In this document: one piece after another, positions 11,247 to 51,309 of the stretch | Layout: each line of letters opens with the position of its first letter | Position numbering within the stretch: position 1 is the first letter of the stretch | Origin: Bifidobacteriaceae bacterium | GTDB lineage: Bacteria > Actinomycetota > Actinomycetes > Actinomycetales > Bifidobacteriaceae | Length of the DNA: 64,000 nt | Direction of reading: 5' to 3' | Assembly: GCA_022651005.1 (NCBI GenBank) | Contig: JALCQD010000004.1 | Location: 124,001 to 188,000, forward strand | The notes under the pieces: generated by a model | Told to the model about the DNA's origin: nothing | The model's input: only the letters and a program-made list of their open reading frames with translations | Database searches by the model: none | Program-made: the position numbers and the translations under genes

Positions 11247-11247
11247 C

Positions 11248-16489: not shown

Positions 16490-16503
16490 TAGATTTCGGA
16501 AAG

Positions 16504-17061
16504 TTAGCGGCCTGTGACCTCGGAGCCGGTGACCTTCTCAGCCAATGCCTTGGGGCCGCGCATCACGGCGACTGCACCGGAGCGCACGAGCTCGATGATG
16601 CCGTAGTGCTCCAAGAGTCCGAGGAGGGCGTCGAGCTTGTCTTCGGAGCCGGTTGCCTCGATGGTGAGGGACTCGGGATGAACGTCCACGACGCGCACGC
16701 GGAAGAGCTTCACAATCTCGAGAATGTCGGAGCGGTTGTGCTCGTTCGCCGCCACCTTGATGAGTACCAGCTCGCGCTGAACGGAGGTCGAGGAATCGAG
16801 TTCCACGATCTTGAGAACATGCAGCAACTTGTTGAGCTGCTTGATGATCTGCTCGAGCGGAATCTGCTCCACCTCTGCCGTCACGGTGACGCGCGAGATG
16901 TCGGGGCGCTCAGTGGGGGAGACGGACAACGAGTTGATATTGAACGCACGACGGGCGAAGAGGCCCGAGATACGTGCCAGAACGCCGGGGCGATTCTCCA
17001 CCAACACACTGAGCGTGTGCTTTTCTGAACCGGGACGCGATGCGGGGTAATTCGTTGCCAT
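16504..17061 (-). CDS. ilvN: Acetolactate synthase small (regulatory) subunit
   Basis: The 185-residue protein begins with an ACT domain (HTLSVLVENRPGVLARISGLF near residues 14-34) that binds valine, followed by the C-terminal ALS_ss_C domain. It confers valine feedback on IlvB. The ATG at 17061 overlaps the ilvB stop codon (TAATG) and is preceded by GGAGGAAAAG, so translation is coupled to ilvB. It closes the branched-chain amino acid operon. Confidence 0.96.
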   Translation of the reverse strand: MATNYPASRPGSEKHTLSVLVENRPGVLARISGLFARRAFNINSLSVSPTERPDISRVTVTAEVEQIPLEQIIKQLNKLLHVLKIVELDSSTSVQRELVLIKVAANEHNRSDILEIVKLFRVRVVDVHPESLTIEATGSEDKLDALLGLLEHYGIIELVRSGAVAVMRGPKALAEKVTGSEVTGR

Positions 17062-19100: not shown

Positions 19101-19348
19101 AATTGCGTGCCTCTCATTCATATGCTTCGTGGGTCTTTGTTCCCATGAAATGAAACGTCAAATATTTGATAGGTTCTCGAAAGACTATTACCCCAAGGAG
19201 GGGGTTTCACGCGATCATCCACATTATGGTCTGGACGATGCCGAGAAGGCGAGGGGCAACAGCTTTTGGCCGGCCCACTACAAGCCCTGTACAGCGTGAC
19301 CTTTCGTACTTCCGCGAGTCTAGTCCGAGGGGGCTACTCGTTGGGAGT
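19101..19348 (-). other. Long ilvB leader region
   Basis: This 248-bp gap between rnc and ilvB is unusually long for this strand. On the minus strand it contains a small hairpin ACCCC-CTCCTT-GGGGT. I searched for a leader peptide rich in branched-chain codons and a T-box and saw neither. It may hold the ilvBN promoter, but no confident box is identified. Confidence 0.35.
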
Positions 19349-20083
19349 TTATCGCTGCGCGGACAATCGATTGTAGGCCACTTCGGCGGCAGCTAGCTGC
19401 GCCTTACGCTTGGAGGGGCCCTCCGCCTGTGCCACATCTGTGCCATCCTCGAGAATCACATGTGCCACGAAGACAGGCTGAGACTCCACTCCTCCGACTT
19501 CCATGCGATAGGTGGGCTCGGCAATGTTGAGCTTGTGGCTCAGAACAGTGAGGGAGGTCTTCCAATCCAGGGCTGGTCCCTCGGTGGCTACTTCCGCCAA
19601 CGTGTCGTCCACGAGACGATGCACCACGCGGCGTGCTTCGTCGATGCCATGCGCCACAAAGGTAGCACCGAGCAGGGCTTCCACCGTGTCGCACAGGATG
19701 GAGTTCTTGTTGGCTCCGCCCTGGTCGGACTCGCCGTTGCCCAGCAGGATGAAGGGTCCGAGATTGAGCTTCGTGCGTGCGATGGCTGAGAGGGAATCCT
19801 CAGAGACTGCTTTGGCGCGCATCTTGGCAAGGTGGCCCTCGGGGAAGTCGGGATGTTCGGTATAAATGGTTTCCGTCACCACGAGTTCCAGAACGGCATC
19901 GCCGAGGAATTCGAGGCGCTCGTTGTTGGGGAGTCCCGGATTCTCGTGGGCAAAGGAGCGGTGCGTGAGCGCATGCACAAGCAAATCAGGCTCCAGAGTG
20001 GTTCCAAGCGCCTTCAGCAGCTCGTCGCCGTTATCGGTAATCAAATGGAAGGATGTCCCTGCGTGGGTCGCTGTCTTTGCCAT
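19349..20083 (-). CDS. rnc: Ribonuclease III
   Basis: The 244-residue protein has the catalytic signature NERLEFLGDAVLELVV near residues 53-68 and a C-terminal double-stranded RNA-binding domain (DWKTSLTVLSHK...FVAHVILEDG...SKRKAQLAAAEVA). It cleaves dsRNA in rRNA and mRNA processing. GGAG precedes the ATG at 20083. It lies in the actinobacterial order coaD, SepIVA, DUF177, rpmF, rnc. Confidence 0.96.
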   Translation of the reverse strand: MAKTATHAGTSFHLITDNGDELLKALGTTLEPDLLVHALTHRSFAHENPGLPNNERLEFLGDAVLELVVTETIYTEHPDFPEGHLAKMRAKAVSEDSLSAIARTKLNLGPFILLGNGESDQGGANKNSILCDTVEALLGATFVAHGIDEARRVVHRLVDDTLAEVATEGPALDWKTSLTVLSHKLNIAEPTYRMEVGGVESQPVFVAHVILEDGTDVAQAEGPSKRKAQLAAAEVAYNRLSAQR

Positions 20084-36217: not shown

Positions 36218-38251
36218 GTGGCAACTGGCCAGAATCTTGCCGATATGAAGTTGGCGCAACTCAAGGACCTTGCAAAGCAAATGGGTCTTCGAGGAACCTC
36301 GACGATGCGCAAGCCTGATCTCATAGAGACCATTAACGCCGCGCGCACGGGTGGGCAAGCACCCGAAGGCGTTACCGTGGGTGTGATCCGTAGGGGTCGT
36401 CCTCCTAAGGTCACAAAAGCAGAAAAGGCAGCGGCGTCAAAGGCATCTTCCGCTAAGAAGGCGTCAGAGGAGGCTCCTGCTGCAAGTGAAGAACCGAAGG
36501 CAGCCGCCCCATCCGCCGAGAAATCGACGCAGCCGCAGTCTTCACGGTCGAAGACCGTTGCTGGTGCGAGTGCAGCCCCTCTGATGACGGAGCCAGTTCT
36601 CACTCCCGCTCCCAAGGCCACGAGGACACGTTCAGCATCGACGTCTCATCGTAAGAACGAGGGCATCGAAAAGCTTGATCTGGGAATCGACATTCCCAGC
36701 CGTTCCGCTTCGACGCGTGCATCGAGCGCTCGCTCTGACGAGCAGGCGCACGAGAACTCCGCTGGCGCCGCAGGTCTCGATGATATCTTGGCGGTCTTGC
36801 CGGATCGTTCGGGCCAGGGGCACGCCTCCAAGCGGTCCGAGTCCGCGAATCGCGACTCAGAATCAAACGAGGGTGAGCGTGACTTTACGCGCCGCTCGCG
36901 CAATAATCGTCACGATCGTGAGGATCGTAACGAACGCGGTGGCCGTAACGACCGCCGTAACAAGAACTCGCGTAACGACCGCAACGACCGACGCAACAAC
37001 CGCAACGACCGTCACGATCGTGAGGATCGTAACGAACGCGATTACGAGGATCGCAACGATCGCGACAACGAGTCGAATCAGAACTCGAATTACCGTGACG
37101 AAGGCCAAGCCCAGCAGGTCGTGCCCGTTGCCGGCATCGTCGATATTCTCGACTCCTATGCCTTCATCCGCACCAGCGGCTATCTCCCCGGCCCCAACGA
37201 CGTCTACGTGTCCATGGGACTGGTGAAAAAGTACGGGCTGCGCAAGGGCGACGCAGTGCAAGGCACCATCCGTCCTCCGCGCGAAAACGATCGTCGCTCC
37301 CAGCGCCAGAAGTTTGTGCCGCTACAGAGCATCGAATCCGTCAATGGAATGAGCATTGACGACGCGCGCCAACGCCCCGAGTTCAATAAGCTCACTCCTC
37401 TCTACCCGCAGGAGCGCCTGCGCATGGAGACCGAGCCCAACAAGATTACGGGCCGTCTCATCGACATCGTGTCGCCCATCGGCAAGGGGCAGCGCGGCCT
37501 CATCGTGTCGCCGCCAAAGGCCGGCAAGACGATCACGCTGCAGCAGATCGCCAACTCCATCTCCACCAACAACCCTGAGGTTCACCTCATGGTGGTGCTG
37601 GTGGACGAGCGCCCCGAGGAAGTCACCGACATGGAGCGCACGGTTCAGGGTGAGGTCATTTCCTCCACCTTCGACCGTCCGGCCACTGACCACACGATTG
37701 TGGCAGAACTCGCCATCGAGCGTGCCAAACGCCTCGTGGAGCTCGGCCAGGATGTGGTGGTGCTGCTCGATTCCATGACCCGTCTGGCGCGTGCGTACAA
37801 CATCGCCGCACCGGCATCAGGCAGAATCCTCTCCGGTGGTGTGGATGCCCAGGCCCTCTACCCGCCCAAGAAGTTCTTTGGTGCTGCGCGCAACATCGAG
37901 AACGGTGGCTCGCTGACCATCATCTCGTCTGCGCTGGTGGAGACCGGTTCCAAGATGGATGAGGTCATCTTCGAGGAATTCAAGGGAACCGGCAACATGG
38001 AGCTGCGTCTGTCTCGCGAACTTGCCGACAAGCGCCTCTTCCCGGCCATCGATATCAATGCGTCCGGAACCAGACGCGAGGAGCTCATCACTCCTCCCAC
38101 GGAGCTGGCAGTTGTGTACCGCTTGCGTCGTGCATTCGGCGGACTCGAGCCCGAGCAGGCTTACCAGACGCTCGTGCCGCGCCTCAAGAAGACGCGTACC
38201 AACCGCGAGTTCCTGGCAGCCATTAACTCCACCATGCCACAAGGCAACTGA
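36218..38251 (+). CDS. rho: Transcription termination factor Rho
   Basis: The 677-residue protein starts at a GTG preceded by GAAAGG at 7 nt. It has the N-terminal helix bundle (LADMKLAQLKDLAKQMG), a ~250-residue insertion, the cold-shock-like RNA-binding domain (VAGIVDILDSYAFIR) and the RecA-type motor: Walker A IVSPPKAGKT near residue 430, VVLVDERPEE, Walker B VVVLLDSMTRLARAYN. The insertion ends in a run of Arg/Asn/Asp/Glu repeats (about residues 225-290), the long polar insertion seen in actinobacterial Rho that widens RNA binding. Two in-frame 31-bp identical DNA repeats encode part of it. A terminator follows. Confidence 0.97.
   Translation: MATGQNLADMKLAQLKDLAKQMGLRGTSTMRKPDLIETINAARTGGQAPEGVTVGVIRRGRPPKVTKAEKAAASKASSAKKASEEAPAASEEPKAAAPSAEKSTQPQSSRSKTVAGASAAPLMTEPVLTPAPKATRTRSASTSHRKNEGIEKLDLGIDIPSRSASTRASSARSDEQAHENSAGAAGLDDILAVLPDRSGQGHASKRSESANRDSESNEGERDFTRRSRNNRHDREDRNERGGRNDRRNKNSRNDRNDRRNNRNDRHDREDRNERDYEDRNDRDNESNQNSNYRDEGQAQQVVPVAGIVDILDSYAFIRTSGYLPGPNDVYVSMGLVKKYGLRKGDAVQGTIRPPRENDRRSQRQKFVPLQSIESVNGMSIDDARQRPEFNKLTPLYPQERLRMETEPNKITGRLIDIVSPIGKGQRGLIVSPPKAGKTITLQQIANSISTNNPEVHLMVVLVDERPEEVTDMERTVQGEVISSTFDRPATDHTIVAELAIERAKRLVELGQDVVVLLDSMTRLARAYNIAAPASGRILSGGVDAQALYPPKKFFGAARNIENGGSLTIISSALVETGSKMDEVIFEEFKGTGNMELRLSRELADKRLFPAIDINASGTRREELITPPTELAVVYRLRRAFGGLEPEQAYQTLVPRLKKTRTNREFLAAINSTMPQGN
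36908..37040. repeat. 31-bp exact direct repeat inside rho
   Basis: Copies at 36908-36938 and 37010-37040 are identical and 102 bp apart (34 codons). They encode HDREDRNER-type peptides in the charged insertion. Confidence 0.9.
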
Positions 38252-38279
38252 ACTAGAAGCATGGTTGTAGGCATGTAGT

Positions 38280-38328
38280 AAGCCACCGCAGGTATCGTGG
38301 GAATATCTCGATACGGCGGTGGCTTTTA
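38280..38328 (+). terminator. Terminator after rho
   Basis: AAGCCACCGC/GCGGTGGCTT with an inner GTATCG/CGATAC stem is followed by TTTATATTT. Confidence 0.8.
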
Positions 38329-38363
38329 TATTTAGCAGTGACGATGCAGAGGAAGGCTTTCAC

Positions 38364-38741
38364 ATGACGACGGAAATTTCCACAGTGATCGACGCCAATG
38401 ACGATTCTCTCGATCCGGAAACCGCCGCCGCAGCCAAGAAGATAGCGCAGTTGCGTCAGTCGATTGACAATATTGACAACTCCATCGTGTCGTTGCTTGC
38501 CGAACGCTTTAAGGCGACGGCCCAAGTGGGCGTTCTCAAGGCTGAGGCCGGCTTTGCTGCCGCCGATTTTAAGCGTGAAAATGCTCAGATGACGCGGTTG
38601 CGCCGCGTCGCCACAGAGGCGGGATTGGATACTGAGATCGCGGAGAAGTACCGAGAGTTCGTGGTCGAGGAGGCAAAGAAGCGTCATCGCCGCATCGCAG
38701 CGGAAGGGCAGAATCCTGGGGTCCTCGATCTCTTTGCATAG
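38364..38741 (+). CDS. Chorismate mutase (AroQ type)
   Basis: The 125-residue protein is an all-helical AroQ domain: LRQSIDNIDNSIVSLLAERF supplies the first Arg and helix 1, KAEAGF the Lys, and a C-terminal helix follows. It converts chorismate to prephenate for Phe/Tyr synthesis. GAGGAAGG precedes the ATG at 38364. Confidence 0.9.
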   Translation: MTTEISTVIDANDDSLDPETAAAAKKIAQLRQSIDNIDNSIVSLLAERFKATAQVGVLKAEAGFAAADFKRENAQMTRLRRVATEAGLDTEIAEKYREFVVEEAKKRHRRIAAEGQNPGVLDLFA

Positions 38742-38787
38742 GTAGCGGACGGGCTGCCCACCGCGGTTCTATAGCTCTTGCAGTGTC

Positions 38788-39468
38788 TTATAGCGTCGGA
38801 ATGTCGTCGGCCAGCATGCGGTCACGCCAGTAATACACGTCGTCGTGTGCACCGATTTTGCGGACTACCTTACAGGGGGTTCCGAAGGCGACCGAATTCG
38901 GAGGTACGTCTTTCGTAACGACGGAGCCTGCACCAATGACGGAATTTTCTCCGACGGTGACTCCCGGCAGTACGGTGACGCCGGCACCCAACCACACGTT
39001 GTCTTCCAGCACGACGGGTAGGGAGTATTGCGCTGCCTTGCGACGCAGCTCGGGTTTCACGGGGTGCCCCGTGGTCGTGAGTGTGACGTTGGGTGCGATC
39101 ATGACGTGGCTGCCGATGGTGACGGGTCCGTCGTCGACGAGGGTGAGATTGAAATTGGCGTAGGAATAATCGCCCCACGAGGTGAACATACCCCAATTGG
39201 CGTGGAAGGGAGGCTCGATGTAAAGGCCCTTGCCGGTATGGGCGAAGAGCTTGTGCATGATGGCGTTGCGTTTCGCCTGTTCCTTTGGCCGCGTCTGGTT
39301 GTAGTCGTACACGAGTTCTAGGGCCTCGAGCTGTGTGGTGATGAGCGAGTCCGAGAAGTAATACACATTGCCGGAATGCATCGTCTTCAATGTCTCTTCG
39401 GGAATTGCCGGAAGATCGGGAATCTGAAAGTCGTCACTTTCCTGAGGGGATTCGTGAAAGGTCGGCAT
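38788..39468 (-). CDS. Sugar O-acetyltransferase (Maa/LacA type)
   Basis: The 226-residue protein has the N-terminal Mac domain (MHSGNVYYFSDSLITTQLEA) and a left-handed beta-helix of hexapeptide repeats with the catalytic His in TTTGHPVKPELR and VWLGAGVTVLPGVTVGENSVIGAGSVV. Relatives acetylate maltose, galactosides or free sugars from acetyl-CoA. It stands alone on the minus strand. Confidence 0.9.
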   Translation of the reverse strand: MPTFHESPQESDDFQIPDLPAIPEETLKTMHSGNVYYFSDSLITTQLEALELVYDYNQTRPKEQAKRNAIMHKLFAHTGKGLYIEPPFHANWGMFTSWGDYSYANFNLTLVDDGPVTIGSHVMIAPNVTLTTTGHPVKPELRRKAAQYSLPVVLEDNVWLGAGVTVLPGVTVGENSVIGAGSVVTKDVPPNSVAFGTPCKVVRKIGAHDDVYYWRDRMLADDIPTL

Positions 39469-39636
39469 GTGTACTCCTTTGTAAGAGAATGATCCATCAG
39501 TAGTTCAGCAGAAGACGGACGGGCATGCAAGCGTATGAAATGACGTGTGTCGCACGATCGTGCGTGGGGCTCTACTTTTCTCCGTTAGATTCCTGTAGCA
39601 TAAACTCACTCGACGAATCACATGGAGGTGATTTCG

Positions 39637-40749
39637 ATGGATGACGATGATGAACAGCTCGTTCTCGATATGGTGGAGGAATTTGCGCAGACGGAGGTTG
39701 CTCCACTCGACATGCAGATTGATGCAGAGCGCAAGATTCCGGATGAGCTCTTTCGCAAGATGGTAGAGCTGGATCTTCTGGCGATGAATGCGCCTGAGGA
39801 GTGGGGCGGAGTGGATCTTAGCCTCTCTACGGTGTCGCGGGCACTAGAGATTGTGGCGCGCGCGAATGCCTCTGTTGCGGTGATGCTGCAGGGGCAGTTC
39901 AAGACCATCTTCCAGCTTCGACGGTTTGGCAATGAGCAGTTGTGGGATGAGTACAAGGATAAGGTCCACGACACGATCTTCGCCTTCCCCATGACGGAAT
40001 CCACTGGCGGGTCAAATCCCGACTTTATTCAGTCACGATCGAAGAAGGTCGACGGTGGCTATATCCTCAACGGCTCTAAGGTCATGATCACCAATGGGGG
40101 ATTCGCTCAGGTCTACATTCCAATGGTGAAAAACGAAGAGGGCGGGTTCGACTTCTTCGTGGTGGATTCAAGCATGGAGGGATTCAGCTTTACCGGACAA
40201 GAGAATTTCATTGGTCTTACGGGGACGCCCATCGGAGGCATCTCTATGAAGGATCTCTTTGTTCCCGATTCTCATCGCATGGATCCCTCACTGTACAAGG
40301 AGCTCAGCATTGCAGATTCGGCTCATGCAGACGCTCGCGTGTTGATGGGAGCAGTTCTCGCAGGCATACAAAAGCACGCGCTGAACGAAGTGCTCGCCTT
40401 TTCTCAGCAGCGCAAAGCGGGGAATCAGTATTTGTGGGAGCTGCAGGCCATTCAGCGCAAGATCGCTGACATCTCTATGGGGTATCAGAACACGAGGTTG
40501 CTGTATCAAGAGGCTGCTGCGCGCAGAGATGCAGGCGACTCCTCCTACTTCCTTTTCGCCACAATGGCGAAGGCGTATGGATCACGGCAGGCGGTTAGCG
40601 GTGGCGACGACGCCATGCAGGCCATCGGGGCGGTGGCGTACAGCGCAGACTTTCCGATAGCTCATCTGATTCGCGATGCCCGGGCGATGGAATTCGCAGA
40701 GGGTTCAGTGGAAAAGATGCGTACTGAGATAACGAAATGGGAAATTTAA
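39637..40749 (+). CDS. Acyl-CoA dehydrogenase (second of two in this region)
   Basis: The 370-residue flavoprotein has the ACAD fold: N-terminal helices, FAFPMTESTGGSNPD (FAD/substrate loop), ILNGSKVMITNGGFAQ, GVRG-equivalent region, and a C-terminal RDARAMEFAEGSVEKMR. GGAGGTGATTTCG in front of the ATG at 39637 is a near-perfect ribosome-binding site. It is less like CaiA than the gene at 44135. In a cai-type setting it could be a crotonobetainyl-CoA reductase or gamma-butyrobetainyl-CoA dehydrogenase. No electron-transfer flavoprotein is present in the window. Confidence 0.88.
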   Translation: MDDDDEQLVLDMVEEFAQTEVAPLDMQIDAERKIPDELFRKMVELDLLAMNAPEEWGGVDLSLSTVSRALEIVARANASVAVMLQGQFKTIFQLRRFGNEQLWDEYKDKVHDTIFAFPMTESTGGSNPDFIQSRSKKVDGGYILNGSKVMITNGGFAQVYIPMVKNEEGGFDFFVVDSSMEGFSFTGQENFIGLTGTPIGGISMKDLFVPDSHRMDPSLYKELSIADSAHADARVLMGAVLAGIQKHALNEVLAFSQQRKAGNQYLWELQAIQRKIADISMGYQNTRLLYQEAAARRDAGDSSYFLFATMAKAYGSRQAVSGGDDAMQAIGAVAYSADFPIAHLIRDARAMEFAEGSVEKMRTEITKWEI

Positions 40750-41064
40750 TAAAAGCGTTGGAAAGGACAAAATTTAGGTGGGCCCGTTCGCCGTTGAGCA
40801 GACCCACGAATTGTTGACCTCTCTTCAATGAAGCCTCTGCCAGTATAGGAGCTTTGTGAGCTAGATTACATTCTTCGGAATGTCCCGCGCGGTTGCAGTG
40901 TTGTGACCGGTCTCAAAATCGAAAGGTATCGACAACAGGTAATCGCTGAAATGTCGGGGAGGAGCGGCTGTAACGGGCAGATACGCGGTGGAGATAGTCA
41001 GAGTGGCTGTGCCGAGATTCCGGCACAGCCACTCTGCTGTTCATAATGCTGGTTCAGATGACGC
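40750..41064. other. Gene-free 315-bp stretch between ACAD and lactate permease
   Basis: No open frame of note lies here. The only clear element is the 16-bp perfect hairpin at 40999-41036. Confidence 0.6.
40999..41036. terminator. 16-bp perfect hairpin after the lactate permease
   Basis: CAGAGTGGCTGTGCCG and its exact complement flank an AGATTC loop, 28 bp beyond the permease stop on the minus strand. It lies between convergent genes and lacks a U tract. Confidence 0.75.
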
Positions 41065-42723
41065 CTATGAGACGATGATCCATCCGAACACACCTGTGGA
41101 GGCAAGGACGGTGATGATCGAGAGAACGACGAGCATGATCAATGAATACTTGGCGCCTCCGATCAGCAGCTTTGATTCCGAGCCGGGTTCCTTGATAGCT
41201 CCGGCGGCGATGGTGAGATTCTGCGGAGACACGATCTTGCCGAGGCCACCGCCAATCTCATTGACGCCGAGAAGCAAGTGGGGGTGGATTCCCGCCGTCT
41301 GTGCTGCCGTTGCCTGCAGATTGCCGAAGAGGGCCGCTGAAGAGGTGGCAGAGCCGGTGACGGCTGTGCCGATCCAGCCGAGGACGGGGGAGAGGAAGGC
41401 GAAAGCACCGCCTGTTGCCGCCAAGGCGGTTCCGATGGCGTTTGTCTGCCCGGAGAAATTCATGACGTACGCCAGCGCCATGATGACGGCGATGGTCAGA
41501 ATGGTGATGCGGAGGTTGTAGATGGTCTTTCCCAGCGTTGCGATGCCTTTGCCGAAGCTGTAGGAGTACTTTTCCGAGTGCCCCGTAGCGCCGTAGACGA
41601 TGGCCACGATGATTCCGGTGAGAAGGAGCATTGTGCCAGGTGACGACGCCCAGTTGAGGCTGAACTGGGTTGACGTTGAGACTTTTCCTGCCCCATCGAG
41701 AAGACGACCGTCGAGACCCGGCCATCCGAAGGTGATGTCGAACGACGCCAGCCATGCTGCAAGAGGCTTCACCAACTTGGTGACGGCGAGGATGACGACG
41801 ACGAGAAGGTAGGGGAACAGTCCCAGGAAGCCGCGTGACGCACTGATCTTTTCGGTGTTCGGCGCAGAGGCCTGATCTTCAGGGGTTTCCTTCGGCTGCC
41901 AGAAGCGCATGAGAATCACCACGAACAACAGCGACATCAGAGAGGCCAGAACTGCTGCGAGCTCGTACGAGATGTAATTTGCGCCCAAGAAGTACCCCAG
42001 TGCCATACCGGTGCCTGCGGCGAGAGCGGCGGGCCACACCTGACGCACTCCGCGCTTTCCGTCAACGATGACGAGAATCAACGCGGGCACCCACAGCGCA
42101 ATGAAAGGAGAAATGCGACCCATAGTGGCGCCGACGGCAGTTGCCGAAGCGTTTCCGCCGAGACGAGCGACCGTGGTGACCGGGATTGCCATGGCGCCAA
42201 AGCCGACGGTGATGCCGTTGCCAACCATCGCAGCAAGACCGGCCTTGAGCGGCGTGACTCCGATGGCGAGAAGCATGGCGCAGGAAATGGCGACGGGCGC
42301 GCCGAATCCGGCGAGCCCCTCCATGAGTCCGCAGAAGCAGAAGCCGATGAGAATGGCCTGAACGCGCTTGTCTCCGCGGCCCACAGCGGAGAAAATGGCC
42401 TGCACGTCGTGGGACCTGCCGGAAGTCTCGGTGAGGTTATAGAGCCACACCGCCATGATCACGATGTAGAGGATGGGGAAGACTCCGAAGACGGCACCTT
42501 GAAGACTCGTATTGAGTGACATGTCCCATGGCATGTGGAATCCAAAGACGGCTATGGCGATGGCCGCCACGAGGGAGATGACGGCGCACCAATGCGTAGG
42601 TGTCTTGAACGCGCCAAGAAGCACGAAGAACAGTACGAGAGGAATGAGGGCGATAAGTGCCGATATCAGCACGCTTCCACCGACTGCAGTGGCGGTGGGA
42701 ATGAAACCTTGTGATAAAAACAT
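41065..42723 (-). CDS. lldP: L-lactate permease family transporter
   Basis: The 552-residue protein has about 12-14 hydrophobic segments and the LctP motifs VWLYNLTETSGR near residue 82, GLAGFGAPVAISCAMLLAIG near residues 125-145 and a C-terminal ITVLASTGVFGWI. LctP proteins import L-lactate or glycolate with H+. Length equals the family norm. No convincing ribosome-binding site precedes the ATG at 42723, and only 63 bp separate it from the divergent truncated MFS gene. Confidence 0.9.
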   Translation of the reverse strand: MFLSQGFIPTATAVGGSVLISALIALIPLVLFFVLLGAFKTPTHWCAVISLVAAIAIAVFGFHMPWDMSLNTSLQGAVFGVFPILYIVIMAVWLYNLTETSGRSHDVQAIFSAVGRGDKRVQAILIGFCFCGLMEGLAGFGAPVAISCAMLLAIGVTPLKAGLAAMVGNGITVGFGAMAIPVTTVARLGGNASATAVGATMGRISPFIALWVPALILVIVDGKRGVRQVWPAALAAGTGMALGYFLGANYISYELAAVLASLMSLLFVVILMRFWQPKETPEDQASAPNTEKISASRGFLGLFPYLLVVVILAVTKLVKPLAAWLASFDITFGWPGLDGRLLDGAGKVSTSTQFSLNWASSPGTMLLLTGIIVAIVYGATGHSEKYSYSFGKGIATLGKTIYNLRITILTIAVIMALAYVMNFSGQTNAIGTALAATGGAFAFLSPVLGWIGTAVTGSATSSAALFGNLQATAAQTAGIHPHLLLGVNEIGGGLGKIVSPQNLTIAAGAIKEPGSESKLLIGGAKYSLIMLVVLSIITVLASTGVFGWIIVS

Positions 42724-42786
42724 GGGGTTAACTATGACATACGTTCCATTATTTGAAAATTTGCACGTTCACATCCCCGATTTAAC

Positions 42787-43983
42787 ATGGCGAGTCTAAA
42801 CTACGAATTTCGTCCGATAAGCCACGCCGATGATGTGAGAAATATCTCACTTGACTTTGGCGCGCGCAAGTGGCGTATTCCTTGGAATAGTGAGGCTTTA
42901 GCATCATATTTCCACCCGGTGGGCTTCGTCACCACGGCACTGCTGACGTTCTGGTATGCGTTTCTGCCGTCCATCACCACGCTGTACATCATCTTCGTCG
43001 GGATGGGCATCACCTCGATTCTCATCTGGTGGGGCATTCGCTTTAAGCTCATCCGTCTGATCTCCGAGGAATCCGAATACTCTCGCAACATCGGTGTGTC
43101 CTATGGTGTCTACGGTGCGGCAGGTCTCATTCTCAACTTCATCAACATCGGCATTCTGTCGTATTTCAACGCCGGTGAAAAGATCGGTGTTCAGATCCTG
43201 CTGTTCTTCCTTGGCGCCATCATTCTGGTTCTCGGCATTCTGTCGTTCCTCTTCATTCCGCGTTTTGAGGGCGAGATCACGTCGCAGTCCAGCTTCGACT
43301 TCTCCATGGTGGGCAAGGCTCTCAAGAGCCCCGTCATTTGGCTCGCTGCCGGCGCCATGTTCTTCGTGTACTTCTTCTACACCGGCGTGAACTACACCAC
43401 CCCATATCTCACCGATGCGCTGGGCGCCTCTGTCGGCATCGTCTCCGTGGTGGGCGTCATTCGCTCGTACGGTGTTACTTTGATTTCAGGCCCCATCTTC
43501 GGCTTCTTCTCGAAGGCAGCGAAGTCCCCGTCCAAGGTCATTATCGGTGGCTCTCTCGTTGTGGTTGTTGGCCTTCTTGTGCTCATCGTCTTGCCCGCCA
43601 ACAGTTCCATTGTGGTGTTGGCCGCCATCATCGCGATTCTGCTCGGCTTCATCTCCAATGGTGTGTTCGGCATCATGTCGGGTCAGCTGACGGAAGGCAA
43701 GGTTCCTCTGACCATCTTCGGCACTGCAACTGGTTTGCTGTCGGTGGTGGGCTTCCTCCCCGACACCTTCTCTTCCACGTGGTTCGGTTCACTGATGGAC
43801 TCGAATGGCAAGGGCGCCTACACCCAGATCTTCTGGATCCTCGCTGGTGCCGCTGTACTGGCCGCGGGCTTCGCTGCCGCGCTGCTCGTCTACGTCAAGA
43901 AGAACAAGGAACGTCTTGTGGCCGAGTCTGAAGCCGCTGCCGCAGAGGCGGAGTCTCACGAGGTAGCGGCCGACATCGCCTCT
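42787..43983 (+). CDS. MFS transporter lacking its N-terminal helices (probably a broken gene)
   Basis: From about residue 48 the protein matches the third MFS helix onward (TALLTFWYAFLPSITTLYIIF) and continues to a normal end with about ten helices, in the UhpC/NarK-like group found in lactobacilli and bifidobacteria. The first 47 residues (FRPISHADDVRN...) are hydrophilic and unrelated, so helices 1-2 and the conserved motif A loop are absent. There is no ribosome-binding site in front of the ATG. The gene is most likely a remnant fused to foreign sequence. A terminator follows at 43994. Confidence 0.65.
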
Positions 43984-43993
43984 TGAAAAATGT

Positions 43994-44027
43994 GGGAGAC
44001 CGTCCCTGGTTGCCTTGATGGTCTCCC
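43994..44027 (+). terminator. Hairpin after the truncated MFS gene
   Basis: GGGAGACC and GGTCTCCC pair across an 18-nt loop immediately after the stop. A U tract is absent. Confidence 0.55.
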
Positions 44028-44061
44028 GTCAATCGCTGTGTGGCGACTTTCTCACAGGCAT

Positions 44062-44085
44062 CCGGCACTCATCGCAGAATGCCGG
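44062..44085. promoter_or_regulatory. Candidate operator dyad upstream of the caiA-like gene
   Basis: CCGGCACTC and GAATGCCGG form a 9-bp dyad with one mismatch around ATCGCA, 50 bp upstream of the caiA-like start. It may be a regulator site or a leader hairpin. Confidence 0.35.
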
Positions 44086-44134
44086 CTCATAAATGAAGAC
44101 AAAATAAACAGACCTTTATATATAAGGAGTAAAA

Positions 44135-45271
44135 ATGGATTTCTCGCTTACTGAAGACCAGCAGCTCATTGCAGACGGTTTCGCGGAGTTGATGAATGAC
44201 GATTCATGGGAACCGTACTTCCGCGAGTGCGACGACAAGCATGAGTACCCCCAGCGCTGGGTCAAGTCCATCTGCGATCTCGGATTCGATCGTATTCTTC
44301 TTCCCGAAGAATACGACGGTCTCGGTCTCGACTGGTCCACTCTCGCGGCGGCATACGAAGCTCTCGGCCGTGCGGGCGCTCCTACCTACATTCTCTATCA
44401 GCTCTCTGGCTGGGACACTTTCATCCGCGAGGGTTCCGACGAGCAGCGCGACGCAATCCTCAGCTCCGTGGGCACCGGTAACCAGATCGTGAACTTCGCT
44501 ATGACTGAGCCCTCCGCCGGTTCGTCATGGAACGATATGCGCACCACCTACACGCGCAAGGACGGCAAAATCTATCTGCAGGGCCAGAAGACGTTCCAGA
44601 CCTCCGGCATGCACGTCCCGTACATGGTGGTCATGGCTCGTAACTCCGAGGACATGTCTGTCTACACCGAGTTCTTCGTCGACATGAGCTCCAAGGGAAT
44701 CAAGCGCGAGCCGCTCAACAAACTGGGCCTGCGCATGGACTCCTGCGCCGTCATCTACTTCGACAACGTCGAACTCGAAGAGAAGGACATCTTCGGGACG
44801 GAAGGCAACGCCTTCATGCGTGGCGTTCAGGACTTCGACCAGGAGCGCTTCCTCGTGGCGCTGAGCAACTACGGCACCGCCTATTGCGCCTACGAGGATA
44901 CCGCGAAGCACGCCAACGAGCGCGTGCAGGGCACCAAGCCGATCGCCGCTTACCAGCTGATCCAAGAGAAGTTCTGCAACATGAAGATTGCGCTGACCAA
45001 CATGCGCAACATGCTCTTCGAGATCGCTTACAAGCACGATCACGGCACGATGGGTCGTGGCGATTGCTCCATGGCGAAGTACTACTGCTCGCAGGCGTCG
45101 TCCATGATCGTCGACAACGCGGTCCAGATCTTCTCCGGCGTGGCAGTGACCGGTGAGCATCGTCTGCAGCGCTTCTACCGCGACATTCGTGTGGACCACA
45201 TCTCTGGCGGCACCGACGAGATGATGATTCTCACCGCCGGCAAGCAGGCCCTGCGCGAATACCGTAAGTAG
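44135..45271 (+). CDS. caiA: CaiA-like crotonobetainyl-CoA reductase (acyl-CoA dehydrogenase fold)
   Basis: The 378-residue flavoprotein resembles E. coli CaiA over its whole length (380 residues from memory). Shared stretches include MDFSLTEDQQLIADGF, LGRAGAPTYILYQL, TTYTRKDGKIYLQGQKTF, YTEFFVDMS, LGLRMDSCAVIYFDNVELEEKD, RFLVALSNYGTAYCAYED and RDIRVDHISGGTDEMMILT. CaiA reduces crotonobetainyl-CoA to gamma-butyrobetainyl-CoA, the last step of anaerobic carnitine reduction, and needs an ETF partner (FixAB in E. coli), which is not in the window. AAGGAG precedes the ATG. It opens a run of five plus-strand genes. Confidence 0.88.
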   Translation: MDFSLTEDQQLIADGFAELMNDDSWEPYFRECDDKHEYPQRWVKSICDLGFDRILLPEEYDGLGLDWSTLAAAYEALGRAGAPTYILYQLSGWDTFIREGSDEQRDAILSSVGTGNQIVNFAMTEPSAGSSWNDMRTTYTRKDGKIYLQGQKTFQTSGMHVPYMVVMARNSEDMSVYTEFFVDMSSKGIKREPLNKLGLRMDSCAVIYFDNVELEEKDIFGTEGNAFMRGVQDFDQERFLVALSNYGTAYCAYEDTAKHANERVQGTKPIAAYQLIQEKFCNMKIALTNMRNMLFEIAYKHDHGTMGRGDCSMAKYYCSQASSMIVDNAVQIFSGVAVTGEHRLQRFYRDIRVDHISGGTDEMMILTAGKQALREYRK

Positions 45272-45317
45272 TCGTCAAAAGGTACCAACAACAGTCCACA
45301 TTGTTCAAGGAGGAATG

Positions 45318-46541
45318 ATGCTCGAAACGAATAAGCCGTCGTTTGGTGTTCTCGATGACGTGAAGGTGGTGTTCTCCGCCATGGAGATCGCAGCCCCTTC
45401 GGCCGCTGAGATCATGTCGGAGTGGGGCGCGGACGTGACATGGATGGAGAATCCATGGAGCGGTGATTCCATGCGTGACACGAAGTGGGTCAAGGAGATG
45501 GAGCGCCGCAACATGCGCTCGATCTCAATGAACCAGTTCTCCGACGAGGGCAAGGAAATTCTGAAGGCGCTCGTGAAGGATGCCGACATCTTCATCGAGT
45601 CCAACAAGGGACCGGTGTTCGAGCGCAAGGGCATCACGGATGAATACCTGTGGGAGGTCAATCCCAAGCTCGTCATTGTGCACGTTTCCGGATTTGGTCA
45701 CACGGGCGTCCCCGAGCGTACCAACACCGCCGCGTACGATCTCACGGTCGCCGCTTATGCCGGTGTTGTTGCTCAGAACGGAACTCCGGAGCAGCCAATG
45801 GGCACTCACCCCTACGCGGGTGACTACTTCAACTCCCTCATGATCGTGTCGTCCGCGCTCGCGGCGCTGCACAGGGCCGAGAAGACCGGCAAGGGAGAGT
45901 CCATCGACATGGCAATGCACGAGACTCTGCTGCGCGTGGGCACGTATTACATGATGGATTATCTCAACGATGGCATCAAGTACCCGCGCCCCGGCGGCCG
46001 TCATCAGAACCTCTGCGCCATTGGAGAGTACAAGTGCAAGGACGGGTTCATTGCACTGTGCGTCTATGGCGTCAAGCAGAACAAGTATCTGCTGGAGAGC
46101 ATCGGCCTCGGAGACCTGTGGGGAACCGAGGATATTCCTGAGGATTCCTCGGCGTTGTGGCTGTCTAATCCGCAGGCGAAGCTCATCGAGTCGAAACTCG
46201 ATGAGTACCTCGCCACACAGTCCAAGTACGACGTGGAGAAGGATTTCAGCGCTCACGCCATGGCCGCCCAGGTCATCAACGAGTTCGAAGACGTTCTCTC
46301 GGACGAGCACATCCAGGCACGCGAGGACTTCATCGAATGGAAGAACCGCGACGGCAAGACGGTCAAGGGACTCAACACCGTTCCGAAGTTCAAGAACAAT
46401 CCCGGTGGCTTCTGGCGCCCGACCCCGGCTCTGGGAGAGGACTCTCTTGATCTTCTGCGCCGCGCAGGATTCTCCGACGATCGCATCGAAGAGTTCAAGA
46501 AGAATGGCGTGGTGAAGTTCGCGGAAGATCAAGAAAACTGA
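45318..46541 (+). CDS. caiB: CaiB-like carnitine/crotonobetaine CoA-transferase
   Basis: The 407-residue class III CoA-transferase matches E. coli CaiB along its length (405 residues): VVFSAMEIAAPSAAEI, IFIESNKGPVFERKGITDEY, NPKLVIVHVSGFGHTG, GKGESIDMAMHETLLRVG and VPKFKNNPGGFWR. The catalytic Asp sits in HPYAGDYFNSL at residue 169 of the start used here, the position reported for E. coli CaiB. It swaps CoA between gamma-butyrobetainyl-CoA or crotonobetainyl-CoA and carnitine. AAGGAGG fits the ATG at 45318 better than the one at 45315. It lies 46 bp after caiA. Confidence 0.9.
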   Translation: MLETNKPSFGVLDDVKVVFSAMEIAAPSAAEIMSEWGADVTWMENPWSGDSMRDTKWVKEMERRNMRSISMNQFSDEGKEILKALVKDADIFIESNKGPVFERKGITDEYLWEVNPKLVIVHVSGFGHTGVPERTNTAAYDLTVAAYAGVVAQNGTPEQPMGTHPYAGDYFNSLMIVSSALAALHRAEKTGKGESIDMAMHETLLRVGTYYMMDYLNDGIKYPRPGGRHQNLCAIGEYKCKDGFIALCVYGVKQNKYLLESIGLGDLWGTEDIPEDSSALWLSNPQAKLIESKLDEYLATQSKYDVEKDFSAHAMAAQVINEFEDVLSDEHIQAREDFIEWKNRDGKTVKGLNTVPKFKNNPGGFWRPTPALGEDSLDLLRRAGFSDDRIEEFKKNGVVKFAEDQEN

Positions 46542-46598
46542 GAACACATCAGTGACCGTGGCAGGGACAGCAACGACAAAGCACAGGATTTGGAGAAG

Positions 46599-48158
46599 AT
46601 GAATAGCAGCGAAAAGGGAACCACTCTCCGCACCATGTGGGATTACCAGGTGAGTGCTCACCCGCAGGCTACCTTCTTGTGCTTCGTCGTCGCTGACTCT
46701 GCCGAGACGAGCGAATACAGTTACGCGGAATTTGACCGCCGCGTCAATCGCTCTGCCAATCTCTTGATGAGCATGGGCGTATCTCACGGCGATCGTGTGG
46801 CGCTTCAGCTTCACAACTCCGTGGAGTTTGTGGAATGCCTCCTCGCCCTAGCGAAAATCGGGGGAGTCTGCGTGCCGCTCAACGCCGCAAACACAGCGAG
46901 CGAATGCGGCTACATTCTCGACACATGTGGCGTGAGTTTGCTTATCTCAGATCCCGCGCTGTACAAGGAACCCGGAATGAGTGGGCTGATTGACCATGTG
47001 CTGCTCACGGATCCGAATGCGACGACGGGATACCAACGGCTGCGCGACGCGCAGCGCGACGTGCTCGGTCCCGTGGAGGATCTTCGGGGCTCCGACCTCG
47101 TGGAGATCATGTTCACCTCAGGGACAACGGCCAATCCCAAGGGTGTGATGTTGACCAACGCCAACTTCCTGTTCTCGGGATGGTACGTCAATTGGCAGCT
47201 CGCCATGAATCCCCAGGATCGGTATTTCACCACGATGGCGGTGACACACGCCAACTTCCAGCTGTCGGCATTGACGCCAGTCATCACATCGGGGTCCACA
47301 CTGATACTGGTGAACCGCTTTTCGGCGACGCGCTTCTGGCGAGAGGTGCGCTACACCGAGGCTACGCTCGTGCAGTCGATGGCCATGATTGCGCACACCA
47401 CCATGGTGCAGCCCGTGAATCCGCACGAGAAAGACCATCACGTGCGCTACGTCCATTATTTCCTTCCCCTGAAAGACGAGGAGAAGGAAGCGTACGAGCG
47501 TCGTTTCAACGTCACGATTGTCAACAACTACGGTTCGTCCGAGTCACTTGTGGGGGTCATCACCGATGTCCCCTTCGGCCCTACCAATTGGCCTTCCATC
47601 GGCCGAGTGGGATTGGGCTATGGGGTGCGCATTGTGGATGGCGAAGGTCACGACGTGGCTGCAAACGAGTGTGGGGAGATTCTCATCAAGGGTATTCCCG
47701 GGGTGAGTCTGATGCTGGGCTACTGGCACGATGACGAGGCCACTGCACAGGCGCTCGACGCCGACGGTTGGTACCACTCGGGTGATTTTGGCTGGTGCGA
47801 CGACCGCGGTTGGTATTTCTTCGCCGGCAGGGGAGCGGACCTCATCAAACGCGCCGGTGAGAACGTTTCCGCACTGTGCGTGGAGCAGGTGTTGATCCAC
47901 GCGCCGGGCGTGGAAGACGCTGCTGTGTTCGGAATCCCTGATGCAGTGCGCGATGAAGCGGTAGTTGCGGTTGTGGTACCAAGTGCCGGCGCACACCCGA
48001 CAGAACAGAGTATCGAGGAATACGCATCACAGCATCTGGCGTATTTCAAAGTGCCATCAATTATTGAATTTCGTGAGAGTCTTCCCCGTGGCCACTACGG
48101 GAAGGTCCTCAAAAATGAGCTACGCGAAGAAGCGAAGCTCACCTATGGAAAGGAATAG
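46599..48158 (+). CDS. caiC: CaiC-like carnitine/crotonobetaine CoA ligase
   Basis: The 519-residue adenylate-forming ligase corresponds to E. coli CaiC (517 residues): LRTMWDYQV, VALQLHNSVEFVECLLALAKIG, the AMP motif FTSGTTANPKGVMLT, NNYGSSESLVGVITD, WPSIGRVGLGYGVRI, GWYHSGDFGW and KRAGENVSALCVEQVL. It charges carnitine, crotonobetaine or gamma-butyrobetaine with CoA using ATP, priming the cycle that CaiB then sustains. The ATG at 46599 follows GGAGAAG; an in-frame TTG three codons earlier is an alternative. Confidence 0.88.
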   Translation: MNSSEKGTTLRTMWDYQVSAHPQATFLCFVVADSAETSEYSYAEFDRRVNRSANLLMSMGVSHGDRVALQLHNSVEFVECLLALAKIGGVCVPLNAANTASECGYILDTCGVSLLISDPALYKEPGMSGLIDHVLLTDPNATTGYQRLRDAQRDVLGPVEDLRGSDLVEIMFTSGTTANPKGVMLTNANFLFSGWYVNWQLAMNPQDRYFTTMAVTHANFQLSALTPVITSGSTLILVNRFSATRFWREVRYTEATLVQSMAMIAHTTMVQPVNPHEKDHHVRYVHYFLPLKDEEKEAYERRFNVTIVNNYGSSESLVGVITDVPFGPTNWPSIGRVGLGYGVRIVDGEGHDVAANECGEILIKGIPGVSLMLGYWHDDEATAQALDADGWYHSGDFGWCDDRGWYFFAGRGADLIKRAGENVSALCVEQVLIHAPGVEDAAVFGIPDAVRDEAVVAVVVPSAGAHPTEQSIEEYASQHLAYFKVPSIIEFRESLPRGHYGKVLKNELREEAKLTYGKE

Positions 48159-48160
48159 CA

Positions 48161-49042
48161 ATGGGAAGAATCAAGACTGAAATGGTGGGACAGACCTTCG
48201 GTCCCTTCGTGAAGGACTACACCTTCAAGGATCTCGAGCTCTTCGCACTTGGCTGTGGAGCGGGCATCGATGGCAAGGACGGTCTGGAGTACATCAACGA
48301 AAAGGATGCCACCAACCCCCAGCTCAAGGTGCTTCCGATGTTTGGCGCCATGCTGATCGTGGATCAGAAGGTCACCAAGACCATTGACTATGGCTATAAC
48401 TACGCGGGGTCCCTCCATTGGGGCTTCGACATCAAGTTCAACCAACCCATCACGAAGATGAGCGATCACCTCGAGACGAAGGTCAAGCTCGCGGGTCTCT
48501 ACGACCGCGGCGAAGGCAAGGGCCTTCTGGCTCAGCACGTCGGCGAGACTTTTGACTCCGACGGCAACCTGCTGTTCACCAACGAATCGTGGGATTGCCT
48601 GATTTATGACGGTGGCTGGGGTGGCCCCAAGCCCCCGAAGGACATCGTTGAGATGCCGGATCGCGCAGCCGACAAGGTGTGCGTGGAGCGCATCCCCGAG
48701 AACCAGGCGCTCATTTATCGTCTTTCCGGAGATTGGCACCCGCAGCACATCGACTGGGATTATGCGGCAGAGAACGGCGAGCCTCGCCCGATTCTTCACG
48801 CCATCTCCTACGCCGGTGTTGTGATGCGTCACGCCATCAACGAGTTCATGCCGGGCGAGCCCGAGCGCATCACTCGCTTCAAGACGCGCATCACCTCTCC
48901 TGTGCTTCCGGGCTCAACCCTCAAGGTTGAACTATGGAAGGTGGCCCCTGGTGAGCTGCGCTTCCGCCTCGTTGATGCTGATGCCGAAGAGACAGGTGCA
49001 AAGCCGCACCTCAACTGGGGCATCATCGAATACAAGGAGTAA
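48161..49042 (+). CDS. MaoC-type (enoyl-CoA hydratase 2-like) double-hotdog protein
   Basis: The 293-residue protein has two hotdog halves. The N-terminal half matches the fatty-acid-synthase/MFE-2 N domain (FKDLELFALGCGAG, LPMFGAMLI) and the C-terminal half the MaoC core with the hydratase-2 motif LSGDWHPQHID (Asp191 and His196 in the catalytic spacing; the usual Asn after Trp is His193) and ILHAISYAGV, where the usual Gly is Ala. Such enzymes add water to trans-2-enoyl-CoA to give D-3-hydroxyacyl-CoA. Starting 2 bp after caiC, it stands in the place of CaiD, a crotonase in E. coli. The substrate is inferred from the neighbours. Confidence 0.82.
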   Translation: MGRIKTEMVGQTFGPFVKDYTFKDLELFALGCGAGIDGKDGLEYINEKDATNPQLKVLPMFGAMLIVDQKVTKTIDYGYNYAGSLHWGFDIKFNQPITKMSDHLETKVKLAGLYDRGEGKGLLAQHVGETFDSDGNLLFTNESWDCLIYDGGWGGPKPPKDIVEMPDRAADKVCVERIPENQALIYRLSGDWHPQHIDWDYAAENGEPRPILHAISYAGVVMRHAINEFMPGEPERITRFKTRITSPVLPGSTLKVELWKVAPGELRFRLVDADAEETGAKPHLNWGIIEYKE

Positions 49043-49050
49043 TTGATCGT

Positions 49051-49123
49051 CACTGCGAAGCGGGGCATCCGGAAACTCCACCAGGATTCGTCAGGGGTTT
49101 CTCGGAGGTCCCGCTTCGCAGTG
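49051..49123 (+). promoter_or_regulatory. Structured intergenic element between maoC-like and yaaU-like genes
   Basis: CACTGCGAAGCGGG (49051-49064) and its exact complement CCCGCTTCGCAGTG (49110-49123) enclose 45 nt that contain a second stem, CCGGAAAC with GTTTCTCGG. No U tract follows. It could be an attenuator, processing or stabilising structure within the operon. Confidence 0.55.
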
Positions 49124-49176
49124 TGCGGGTGTGTGATATTTCGCGAAAAGACGTGTGGAAAATGGAGGGTGTCTAA

Positions 49177-50508
49177 ATGACTGGAAGCACAGAGAGAATT
49201 CACCTCGATGATGTCGCCATGACACCTTTCCTCAGGCGCGTCACAGTGTTTTCCTCGGGTGGTCCTTTCTTGGAGGGCTACGTTCTCTCCATCATCGGAG
49301 TGGCGCTCACGCAGATGTCGGGCGTTCTCCACATCGACAATCATTGGAGTGGCCTCATCGGCGTGGCCGCGCTTGTCGGCGTCTTCTTGGGAGCCTCTGT
49401 GGGAGGTTGGCTCACCGATATGGTGGGGCGCAAGAAGATGTTCATCATCGATGTTGCGAGCATCATCGTCTTTTCACTCTTGTCCGCTTTCGTGCAGAAT
49501 GCTCTCGAGATTGTCATTCTGCGATTCCTCGTGGGGGTTGTTGTAGGAGCGGATTACCCCATCGCCACCTCGATGATCACCGAGTTCACACCGCGCAAAT
49601 ACCGCGCATATTCGATGGGCTTCCTGGCGGCAGTCTGGTACCTTGGCGCCAACATCGCGTACGTGGTGGGCTATTTTATCGAGGGCATCCCCAACGGGTG
49701 GCGCTGGATGCTGGCGTCTACCATCGTGCCCTGCGTCATAATTCTTCTCGGACGCTGGTCCATTCCAGAATCTCCGCGATGGCTCATGTCGAAGGGACGC
49801 ATGGACGAGGCGAATGAGGTCATCAAGCATCTGTTTGGCGCAGACGTTGTGCTTGACGACGAACCCGCAGTGAAAACGGATATCCGCAAGGTCTTCCATG
49901 GGCAGTATCTCAAGCGAGTTCTTTTCGTGGCCGTCATCTGGCTATGCCAGGCCATTCCGATGTTCGCTATCTACACCTACGGTCCCACCATCATGAATGC
50001 TATGGGGGTGGGCGAGGGCAGAAGCCAGCTGCTGGGCGAAATCATCGTCGGCACCTTCTTCCTCATCGGCACTATTCCCGCTATGTTCCTCGCCGAGAGC
50101 TGGGGTCGGCGGCCTCTCGTCATCTGGAGCTTTGCCGCCATGGCCGTGGCTCTCTTCATCCTGGGACTTTTGCCGCATGCCTCCATCGTTGTTGTGGTTG
50201 TCCTCTTCGGCATTTATGCGCTGTGCGCGGGAGGCCCTGGGAACCTTCAGTGGTTGTATCCCACGGAGCTTTTTCCCACTGAAATCAGGGCGTCCGCGAT
50301 GGGCATTGCCACTGCAATGAGCCGCATTGGAACCGTCGTGACCACCTATATTTTGCCGGCATTCTTGAGCAAACACGGCAGCACGTCCATCATGATCATC
50401 GGTGCAGTCATCTCCCTGGCGGGATTCCTCATTTCCGTGGTGTGGGCACCGGAAACAAAGGGGCGGTCGCTGACGGAAACGAGTTCAACGCACTTTGCGG
50501 GTAAATGA
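49177..50508 (+). CDS. yaaU: YaaU-like MFS transporter, likely carnitine/crotonobetaine carrier
   Basis: The 443-residue sugar-porter-fold MFS protein has 12 helices and resembles E. coli YaaU (next to cai-fix genes there) closely: SSGGPFLEGYVLSIIGVAL, IGADYPIATSMITEF-type loop (VGADYPIATSMITEF), PESPRWLMSKGR, IPMFAIYTYGPTI, GGPGNLQWLYPTELFPTEIRASA and APETKGRSLTETS. The DMVGRKKMF motif A after helix 2 is intact. YaaU has no proven substrate, but its fixed linkage to carnitine genes makes betaine transport plausible. GGAGGG precedes the ATG. Confidence 0.85.
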   Translation: MTGSTERIHLDDVAMTPFLRRVTVFSSGGPFLEGYVLSIIGVALTQMSGVLHIDNHWSGLIGVAALVGVFLGASVGGWLTDMVGRKKMFIIDVASIIVFSLLSAFVQNALEIVILRFLVGVVVGADYPIATSMITEFTPRKYRAYSMGFLAAVWYLGANIAYVVGYFIEGIPNGWRWMLASTIVPCVIILLGRWSIPESPRWLMSKGRMDEANEVIKHLFGADVVLDDEPAVKTDIRKVFHGQYLKRVLFVAVIWLCQAIPMFAIYTYGPTIMNAMGVGEGRSQLLGEIIVGTFFLIGTIPAMFLAESWGRRPLVIWSFAAMAVALFILGLLPHASIVVVVVLFGIYALCAGGPGNLQWLYPTELFPTEIRASAMGIATAMSRIGTVVTTYILPAFLSKHGSTSIMIIGAVISLAGFLISVVWAPETKGRSLTETSSTHFAGK

Positions 50509-50562
50509 CGAGTAAGGTGCTGCGTCTGTGCAAAAAATAACTTCACAAAGGAGTGAGGTCCC

Positions 50563-51234
50563 ATGTATTCACAAGAAGTAATGGTCCTTGGCTCGCGATG
50601 GCAGACCAATTGTTATCTGTTGACGAGTGCCACTGCCGATGGGCGCGAGGAGACGCTGATCATCGACCCGGGCGATGAGCCTGAGCGTCTCATCAGCTAT
50701 GTGAAACGGCGCAATATCACCGTTGTCGGAGCCGTTGCGACGCACGCCCATAACGATCATATTGGTGCCATGCTCGAGCTGCGGTCTCAGCTGGGCATTC
50801 CCATCATGATTCACGCCGACGATCTTGAAATGGCGAGTGATCCCGAGCTTTCCGGTTTTTTTGAGGAACCGGGGAATGAGAATTACGTGGTGGATCTCTG
50901 GGATCGCGTCCTCAACGAGGGCGACGTCATCTCGTGGGGCAGCGATGTGATGAGAGTTCTGCATACGCCGGGGCATACGCGCGGTGCCATTTGTCTCTGT
51001 GATTGCATCAATCGACGCCTCTTTACAGGAGACACGTTATTTGCCGGGGCCATTGGCCGTACTGATTTTGCGCAAGGTGACGACGACGCCATGTGCAGGA
51101 CCTGCCGCAGGTTGGTGTCGCTCAACGCCGTGCATCCAGGGCTGGAAGTCTATCCGGGGCATGGGCATCCCACCTTTTTGGCGGTAGAGGTAGAACGCAA
51201 CGCTATGTTCAGGAAAATGGCGGGGTTGAACTGA
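50563..51234 (+). CDS. Metallo-beta-lactamase-fold hydrolase (glyoxalase II-like)
   Basis: The 223-residue protein has the zinc-binding signature THAHNDHIGAM near residues 64-74 (HxHxDH), a His in LHTPGHTRGA, the bridging Asp in FTGDTLFAGAIGRTDF and a final His in GHGHPTF. Glyoxalase II-like enzymes cleave thioesters such as S-lactoylglutathione; with a CoA-dependent operon upstream, a thioesterase role is possible but unproven. AAAGGAGTGAGG precedes the start. It lies 54 bp after yaaU and is closed by a terminator. Confidence 0.85.
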   Translation: MYSQEVMVLGSRWQTNCYLLTSATADGREETLIIDPGDEPERLISYVKRRNITVVGAVATHAHNDHIGAMLELRSQLGIPIMIHADDLEMASDPELSGFFEEPGNENYVVDLWDRVLNEGDVISWGSDVMRVLHTPGHTRGAICLCDCINRRLFTGDTLFAGAIGRTDFAQGDDDAMCRTCRRLVSLNAVHPGLEVYPGHGHPTFLAVEVERNAMFRKMAGLN

Positions 51235-51260
51235 AATAGGTGACACTAGGTGACACGACG

Positions 51261-51309
51261 AAAGTGGGGTTGTGCCGTTTCTTTCAGAACGGCGCAACCC
51301 CACTTTTTG
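51261..51309 (+). terminator. Rho-independent terminator of the cai-type operon
   Basis: AAAGTGGGGTTGTGCCGTT pairs with AACGGCGCAACCCCACTTT (one G-U) around TCTTTCAG and ends in TTTTT. It would also serve valS on the minus strand. Confidence 0.9.

Follow-up and report, generated by a model that had tools for sequence, protein, structure and literature searches.

We analyzed a 64,000-nt stretch of the genome of the Bifidobacteriaceae bacterium GCA_022651005.1 (contig JALCQD010000004.1, positions 124,001 to 188,000, forward strand; referred to here as the window, with all positions given in window numbering), focusing on a gene cluster of the carnitine/crotonobetaine (cai) type. The genome measures 2.16 Mb and is 95.6% complete in 6 contigs, with the cluster on a contig of 236 kb. 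Six complete open reading frames (ORFs) lie head to tail on the plus strand across 44135-51234. They encode a CaiA-like crotonobetainyl-CoA reductase/dehydrogenase (44135-45271), the L-carnitine/gamma-butyrobetainyl CoA-transferase CaiB (45315-46541), a CaiC-like AMP-forming betaine-CoA ligase (46599-48158), a two-domain MaoC-type protein of the 2-enoyl-CoA hydratase 2 family with the motif GDWHPQHIDW (48161-49042), a YaaU-like major facilitator superfamily (MFS) carrier of the Sugar_tr family (49177-50508), and a metallo-beta-lactamase (MBL)-fold hydrolase (Lactamase_B, glyoxalase-II-like; 50563-51234). The ORF of the caiC-like gene extends from 46590, and the ATG at 46599, which directly follows GGAG, is a likelier start than the TTG at 46590. 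A strong intrinsic terminator with 20 pairs (51260-51307, plus strand) closes the operon and is convergent with valS. This layout agrees with a first-pass annotation made from the sequence of the window, which had described these six genes on one strand with a single terminator. No Rfam riboswitch was found in the operon.

The same annotation had named the Cai proteins, and these names proved firm for two of the three. CaiA and CaiB passed the curated NCBIfam equivalog cut-offs (NF002885, 675 bits versus 540, and NF002914, 675 bits versus 413, respectively), while the CaiC-like ligase stayed below its own; its best family of 105 was NF005947 (crotonobetaine/carnitine-CoA ligase) with 553 bits, and the cut-off of 651 was not reached. 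Identity to the proteins of Escherichia coli K-12 was 56% for CaiA, 43% for CaiB, and 37% for CaiC. The alignment of CaiB with the E. coli CaiB structure is full-length, and the Asp of the HPYAGDYF motif is retained. The PDB matches of the YaaU-like carrier include SLC22 organic-cation/carnitine transporters, and in E. coli, too, an MFS gene (yaaU) adjoins fixX. Unlike the E. coli caiTABCDE and fixABCX operons, the window has neither CaiT nor FixABCX, and it has MaoC instead of CaiD.

According to the first-pass annotation, such gene sets are for the most part known in enterobacteria and a number of Firmicutes, a view that is outdated because they are widespread in Actinomycetota and published for Propionibacterium. 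In related genomes, we found the gene order MFS, alpha/beta hydrolase, CaiA, CaiB, CaiC, MaoC, MFS, MBL, FixA, FixB, FixC, and FixX. This order was seen in Arcanobacterium, Trueperella, Schaalia, Winkia, Actinobaculum, and others, amounting to dozens of Actinomycetaceae loci, some of which lack one accessory gene; the MBL gene is usually the last before fixABCX in this family. Many Propionibacteriaceae loci and Bacillota loci have much the same gene set in a different order. For Propionibacterium freudenreichii and P. acnes, caiABC with fixABCX has been reported, and carnitine was proposed as an electron acceptor (PMC7650540); the P. freudenreichii cluster consists of MFS, alpha/beta hydrolase, caiABC, enoyl-CoA hydratase/MFS, and fixABCX (PMC11007987, PMC7650540). 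The window shares the Actinomycetaceae order from the first MFS gene to the MBL gene, except for the hydrolase, with 66-76% (CaiA) and 65-75% (CaiB) identity to the Actinomycetaceae proteins. This synteny adds an upstream, N-terminally truncated MFS gene (42787-43986, plus strand) to the operon, which therefore does not begin at 44135 as first described. The window differs from these clusters by the truncation of this gene, the absence of the hydrolase and fixABCX genes, the absence of an electron transfer flavoprotein (ETF) from the genome, and the host family. The gene content is ordinary for Actinomycetota, and the unusual aspects are the host and the missing parts.

CaiA was present in 2 of 189 Bifidobacteriaceae genomes and ETF in 2 of 121. 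In the CaiB tree, the window protein clusters with CaiB from complete cai/fix operons: the two bifidobacterial sequences stand together within a 24-member clade that otherwise consists of Actinomycetaceae (Shimodaira-Hasegawa-like approximate likelihood ratio test, 97). Because CaiB nests in this clade and CaiA is found in so few genomes of the family, the operon was most likely transferred horizontally from Actinomycetaceae into Bifidobacteriaceae. Import from enterobacteria was rejected by the same tree.

The best match outside the genome itself was the Bifidobacteriaceae metagenome-assembled genome UW_DM_BIF4_1 (locus L027/L112; CaiB, 84% identity), which a genome search classed in the same genus and to which we refer as the genus-mate. 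In the third genome of the genus, which is 88% complete, neither CaiA nor ETF was found. Based on DNA alignment, window positions 37550-40934, 41066-42774, 42918-43952, and 44043-50993 are collinear with positions 1-3447, 4171-5878, 10432-11466, and 12573-19535, respectively, of the reverse complement of L112. At this locus, the genus-mate carries etfB, etfA, a gene for an LctD/GlcD-like flavoprotein, a full-length upstream MFS gene, and an esterase gene. Compared with L027/L112, about 4.4-4.6 kb with etfB, etfA, glcD, and the MFS N-terminus is missing at the first junction region in the window (42775-42917; L112 gap, 5878-10432), and ~1.1 kb with the alpha/beta hydrolase gene (acetyl-esterase family NF007547) is missing at the second (43953-44042; L112 gap, 11466-12573). 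The MFS N-terminus, the hydrolase, and fixAB are all present in outgroups, so both gaps represent losses that occurred in the lineage of the window. The upstream MFS ORF is homologous to its counterpart in the genus-mate from about 42919 onward (89%), and its 5' part is former lctP upstream sequence; it is short of roughly 90 native N-terminal residues and otherwise shows no decay. The lctP upstream region with its palindrome (see below) and the caiA leader are retained in the window, and because both are conserved, the flanks of the two junctions look genuine. Searching the window for remnants of fixA, fixB, fixC, fixX, or the hydrolase gene gave nothing above chance.

The first-pass annotation had noted the absence of caiT, caiD, and fixABCX from the window, which we confirmed, and had proposed that a fermentative actinobacterium would use carnitine derivatives as electron sinks, calling for a check of the remaining genome for etfAB, caiD, and BCCT genes. 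In profile searches of the genome in which positive controls were detected, no ETF (PF01012) over the cut-off, no ECH_1 crotonase (CaiD type), and no BCCT protein (CaiT type) was found. The single weak ETF match (G000:C1:494883; E = 0.0017) was rejected as a methionine-importer-type ABC ATPase. FixC had no match in the genome in a search that ran without a positive control; FixX was absent from the window and CaiE and CaiF were not seen there, none of the three having been searched for genome-wide. The sole GlcD relative in the genome is a paralogue (38%) encoded on a different contig, and the two acyl-CoA dehydrogenases, CaiA and the product of a gene at 39622, have no ETF partner. Sequence searches identified no ETF-independent donor to CaiA. 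In a public comparison set of 79 loci with CaiB, the ETF beta gene was missing from the fetched flank in only 4, 2 of which are in stretches of <14 kb. One locus (L061, Pengzhenrongella frigida) has a caiABC-MaoC-MFS operon and no ETF gene within 10 kb, as judged from the flank only and not checked genome-wide. In E. coli, fixA and fixB are required, according to the title of a 2002 paper by Walt and Kahn that PMC11007987 cites. Because CaiA needs an electron donor and the genome has no ETF, etfBA being deleted from the locus, an electron-sink role is unsupported here, and we predict that this function has been lost in the window's organism.

The surviving genes are under purifying selection, with ratios of nonsynonymous to synonymous substitution between the window and the genus-mate of 0.026 for CaiA, 0.030 for MaoC, and 0.040 for the MFS carrier. 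We looked for relaxed selection, which would have indicated decay, and saw none on the window branch. Because selection is purifying and the branch is not accelerated, the loss must be very recent unless a function without reduction persists.

In the public set, 42 loci have MaoC only, 30 have CaiD only, 3 have both, and 4 have neither (3 of these 4 in stretches of <9 kb); because related loci are nonindependent, we read these counts as a pattern. CaiT is also encoded in seven of the MaoC-only loci, and Bacillota, Enterobacillus, and Campylobacterota have operons that combine MaoC with caiT. Based on position and presence, we propose that MaoC replaces CaiD in cai operons. The AlphaFold model of the window protein has the double hot-dog hydratase-2 fold, with a template modeling score of about 0.8 to 1s9c (the MFE-2 domain) and 3khp (a Mycobacterium tuberculosis MaoC protein), at a mean predicted local distance difference test score of 72.9 and with low confidence around the active site. 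The 2-enoyl-CoA hydratase 2 consensus is GDxNPLHxD. Compared with GDxNPxHxD, the Asp and His are retained, and the Asn is changed to His in nearly all cai-linked MaoC proteins; their motif is GD[YFW]HPQH[IV]DW (general form, GDxHPQHxDW), again in nearly all cases. The window protein has the fold in common with 2-enoyl-CoA hydratase 2, as well as the Asp and His positions in GDx(N/H)PxHxD, and is set apart by this motif and by its place in a cai operon. Three loci (L067, L068, and L072; Enterobacillus, Campylobacterales, and Halarcobacter) are proteobacterial-type cai operons with caiT that have MaoC and not CaiD. In three others (L073, L093, and L105; Ferrimonas and Shewanella), both CaiD and MaoC are encoded near caiB, and it is possible that both carnitine isomers are handled there. 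In the literature collection searched, we found nothing direct on MaoC in cai operons or on cai genes in bifidobacteria.

The genes upstream of the operon point to a possible electron source in the genus-mate. There, etfBA adjoins lctP and genes for the GlcD/LctD-like protein and an acyl-CoA dehydrogenase, and Acetobacterium woodii LctD (7qh2_C) was the second best PDB match of GlcD. This arrangement beside the cai operon is like the lct clusters of lactate-using anaerobes, such as A. woodii and Anaerobutyricum soehngenii, which consist of genes for a permease, a NAD-independent D-lactate dehydrogenase, EtfBA, and an acyl-CoA dehydrogenase (PMC8914356). It is unlike them in that EtfBA is related to FixAB of the Actinomycetaceae cai clusters (EtfB, 49-62%) and in that no lactate racemase was seen, while the window has in addition lost etfBA and glcD. 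By analogy, the arrangement suggests that crotonobetaine reduction in the genus-mate may be driven by lactate, replacing FixCX. The window still has lctP (lactate permease, 41065-42723, minus strand), which adjoins etfBA-glcD in the genus-mate, and the second acyl-CoA dehydrogenase gene (39622-40749, plus strand), which is kept beside lctP in the genus-mate. This dehydrogenase is far from characterized families (best score, 161 bits; cut-off, 640) and is a candidate LctG-like partner.

Two noncoding features may be regulatory. The palindrome TGTGAGAAATATCTCAC (42834-42851) lies upstream of lctP and is kept as TGTGAGATATGTCTCA 5' of etfB in L027 (about 2101-2116); it is possibly an operator. 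A strong hairpin without a T-run (49053-49130, plus strand) lies in the maoC-MFS gap (49043-49135; -60.6 kcal/mol, z score of -4.9) and may separate the expression of the two operon halves. It is not conserved in the genus-mate and has one copy in its own genome; an interpretation as a repeated element was rejected because the second match was its own reverse complement.

Together, these data make it likely that the window contains an Actinomycetaceae-type carnitine/crotonobetaine operon that was acquired horizontally and recently lost its electron-delivery arm. In this scheme, CaiC and CaiB would form the CoA esters of carnitine, crotonobetaine, or gamma-butyrobetaine, MaoC would interconvert carnitinyl-CoA and crotonobetainyl-CoA in CaiD's stead, and CaiA would catalyze the reduction of crotonobetainyl-CoA to gamma-butyrobetainyl-CoA. 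In the genus-mate, lactate imported by LctP would be oxidized by the LctD/GlcD-type dehydrogenase, with electrons passing through EtfBA to CaiA instead of through FixCX. Because etfBA, glcD, the esterase gene, and the N-terminus of one carrier have been deleted in the window, we predict that reduction is either blocked or dependent on another donor, and the remnant would at most activate and hydrate or dehydrate carnitine and crotonobetaine. Four points weigh against this interpretation. With the genome 95.6% complete, an ETF may lie in a missing stretch; the deletions were read from the assembly, which may contain an error; and purifying selection persists, with the window branch not consistently accelerated in any gene. 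Finally, the product of hydratase-2 enzymes has (3R)-hydroxyacyl geometry. Although (R)-carnitine is L-carnitine, the neighboring nitrogen swaps the Cahn-Ingold-Prelog priorities, so that this geometry matches D-carnitine in space, whereas the crotonase-type CaiD fits L-carnitine.

The retained operon could also work without any ETF, CaiA having a new electron partner or CaiB, CaiC, and MaoC converting carnitine (perhaps D-carnitine, in view of the hydratase-2 fold) and crotonobetaine into one another for a nonrespiratory purpose, which we consider rather unlikely. A fully working carnitine respiration with an electron-sink role, in which CaiA is fed by a different flavoprotein or directly from NADH or flavodoxin, is unlikely: CaiA, CaiB, CaiC, and MaoC show no relaxed selection, and the operon, its start signals, and its terminator are intact, but the E. 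coli system requires FixAB according to the title cited above, few CaiB loci had fetched flanks devoid of the ETF beta gene, and the genome has no ETF, FixC match, or close GlcD. That etfBA-glcD and the esterase gene exist in the organism and were dropped from the assembly would fit their presence at the same place in the genus-mate, the incompleteness of the 6-contig genome, and the undecayed state of the truncated MFS gene. We consider this quite unlikely because there are two separate gaps, the intergenic sequence flanking them (palindrome, caiA leader) is intact and continuous, the missing genes are on no other contig, and the junctions lie inside the 236-kb contig. Finally, the substrates could be other short-chain betaines or enoyl-CoAs, as CaiC is under its curated cut-off, the stereochemistry of MaoC would suit D-carnitine, and the transporters are of the MFS and not the CaiT/BCCT type. 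This is very unlikely given that CaiA and CaiB are far above their cut-offs, that MaoC also occurs in caiT-containing operons, and that P. freudenreichii strains with an intact syntenic cluster shift the levels in yogurt of acylcarnitine, carnitine, and putative gamma-butyrobetaine (PMC11007987); the latter product hints that L-carnitine can be used.

If MaoC replaces CaiD, searches for carnitine-to-gamma-butyrobetaine capacity that demand caiD and caiT (e.g., with the caiTABCDE database, PMC11857547) would overlook the operons of actinobacteria and several of those in Bacillota. The replacement also poses the stereochemical question of whether L- or D-carnitine is handled. For the Bifidobacteriaceae, our interpretation would mean that a carnitine pathway entered a family nearly without ETF and CaiA and then lost its electron supply within one genus.

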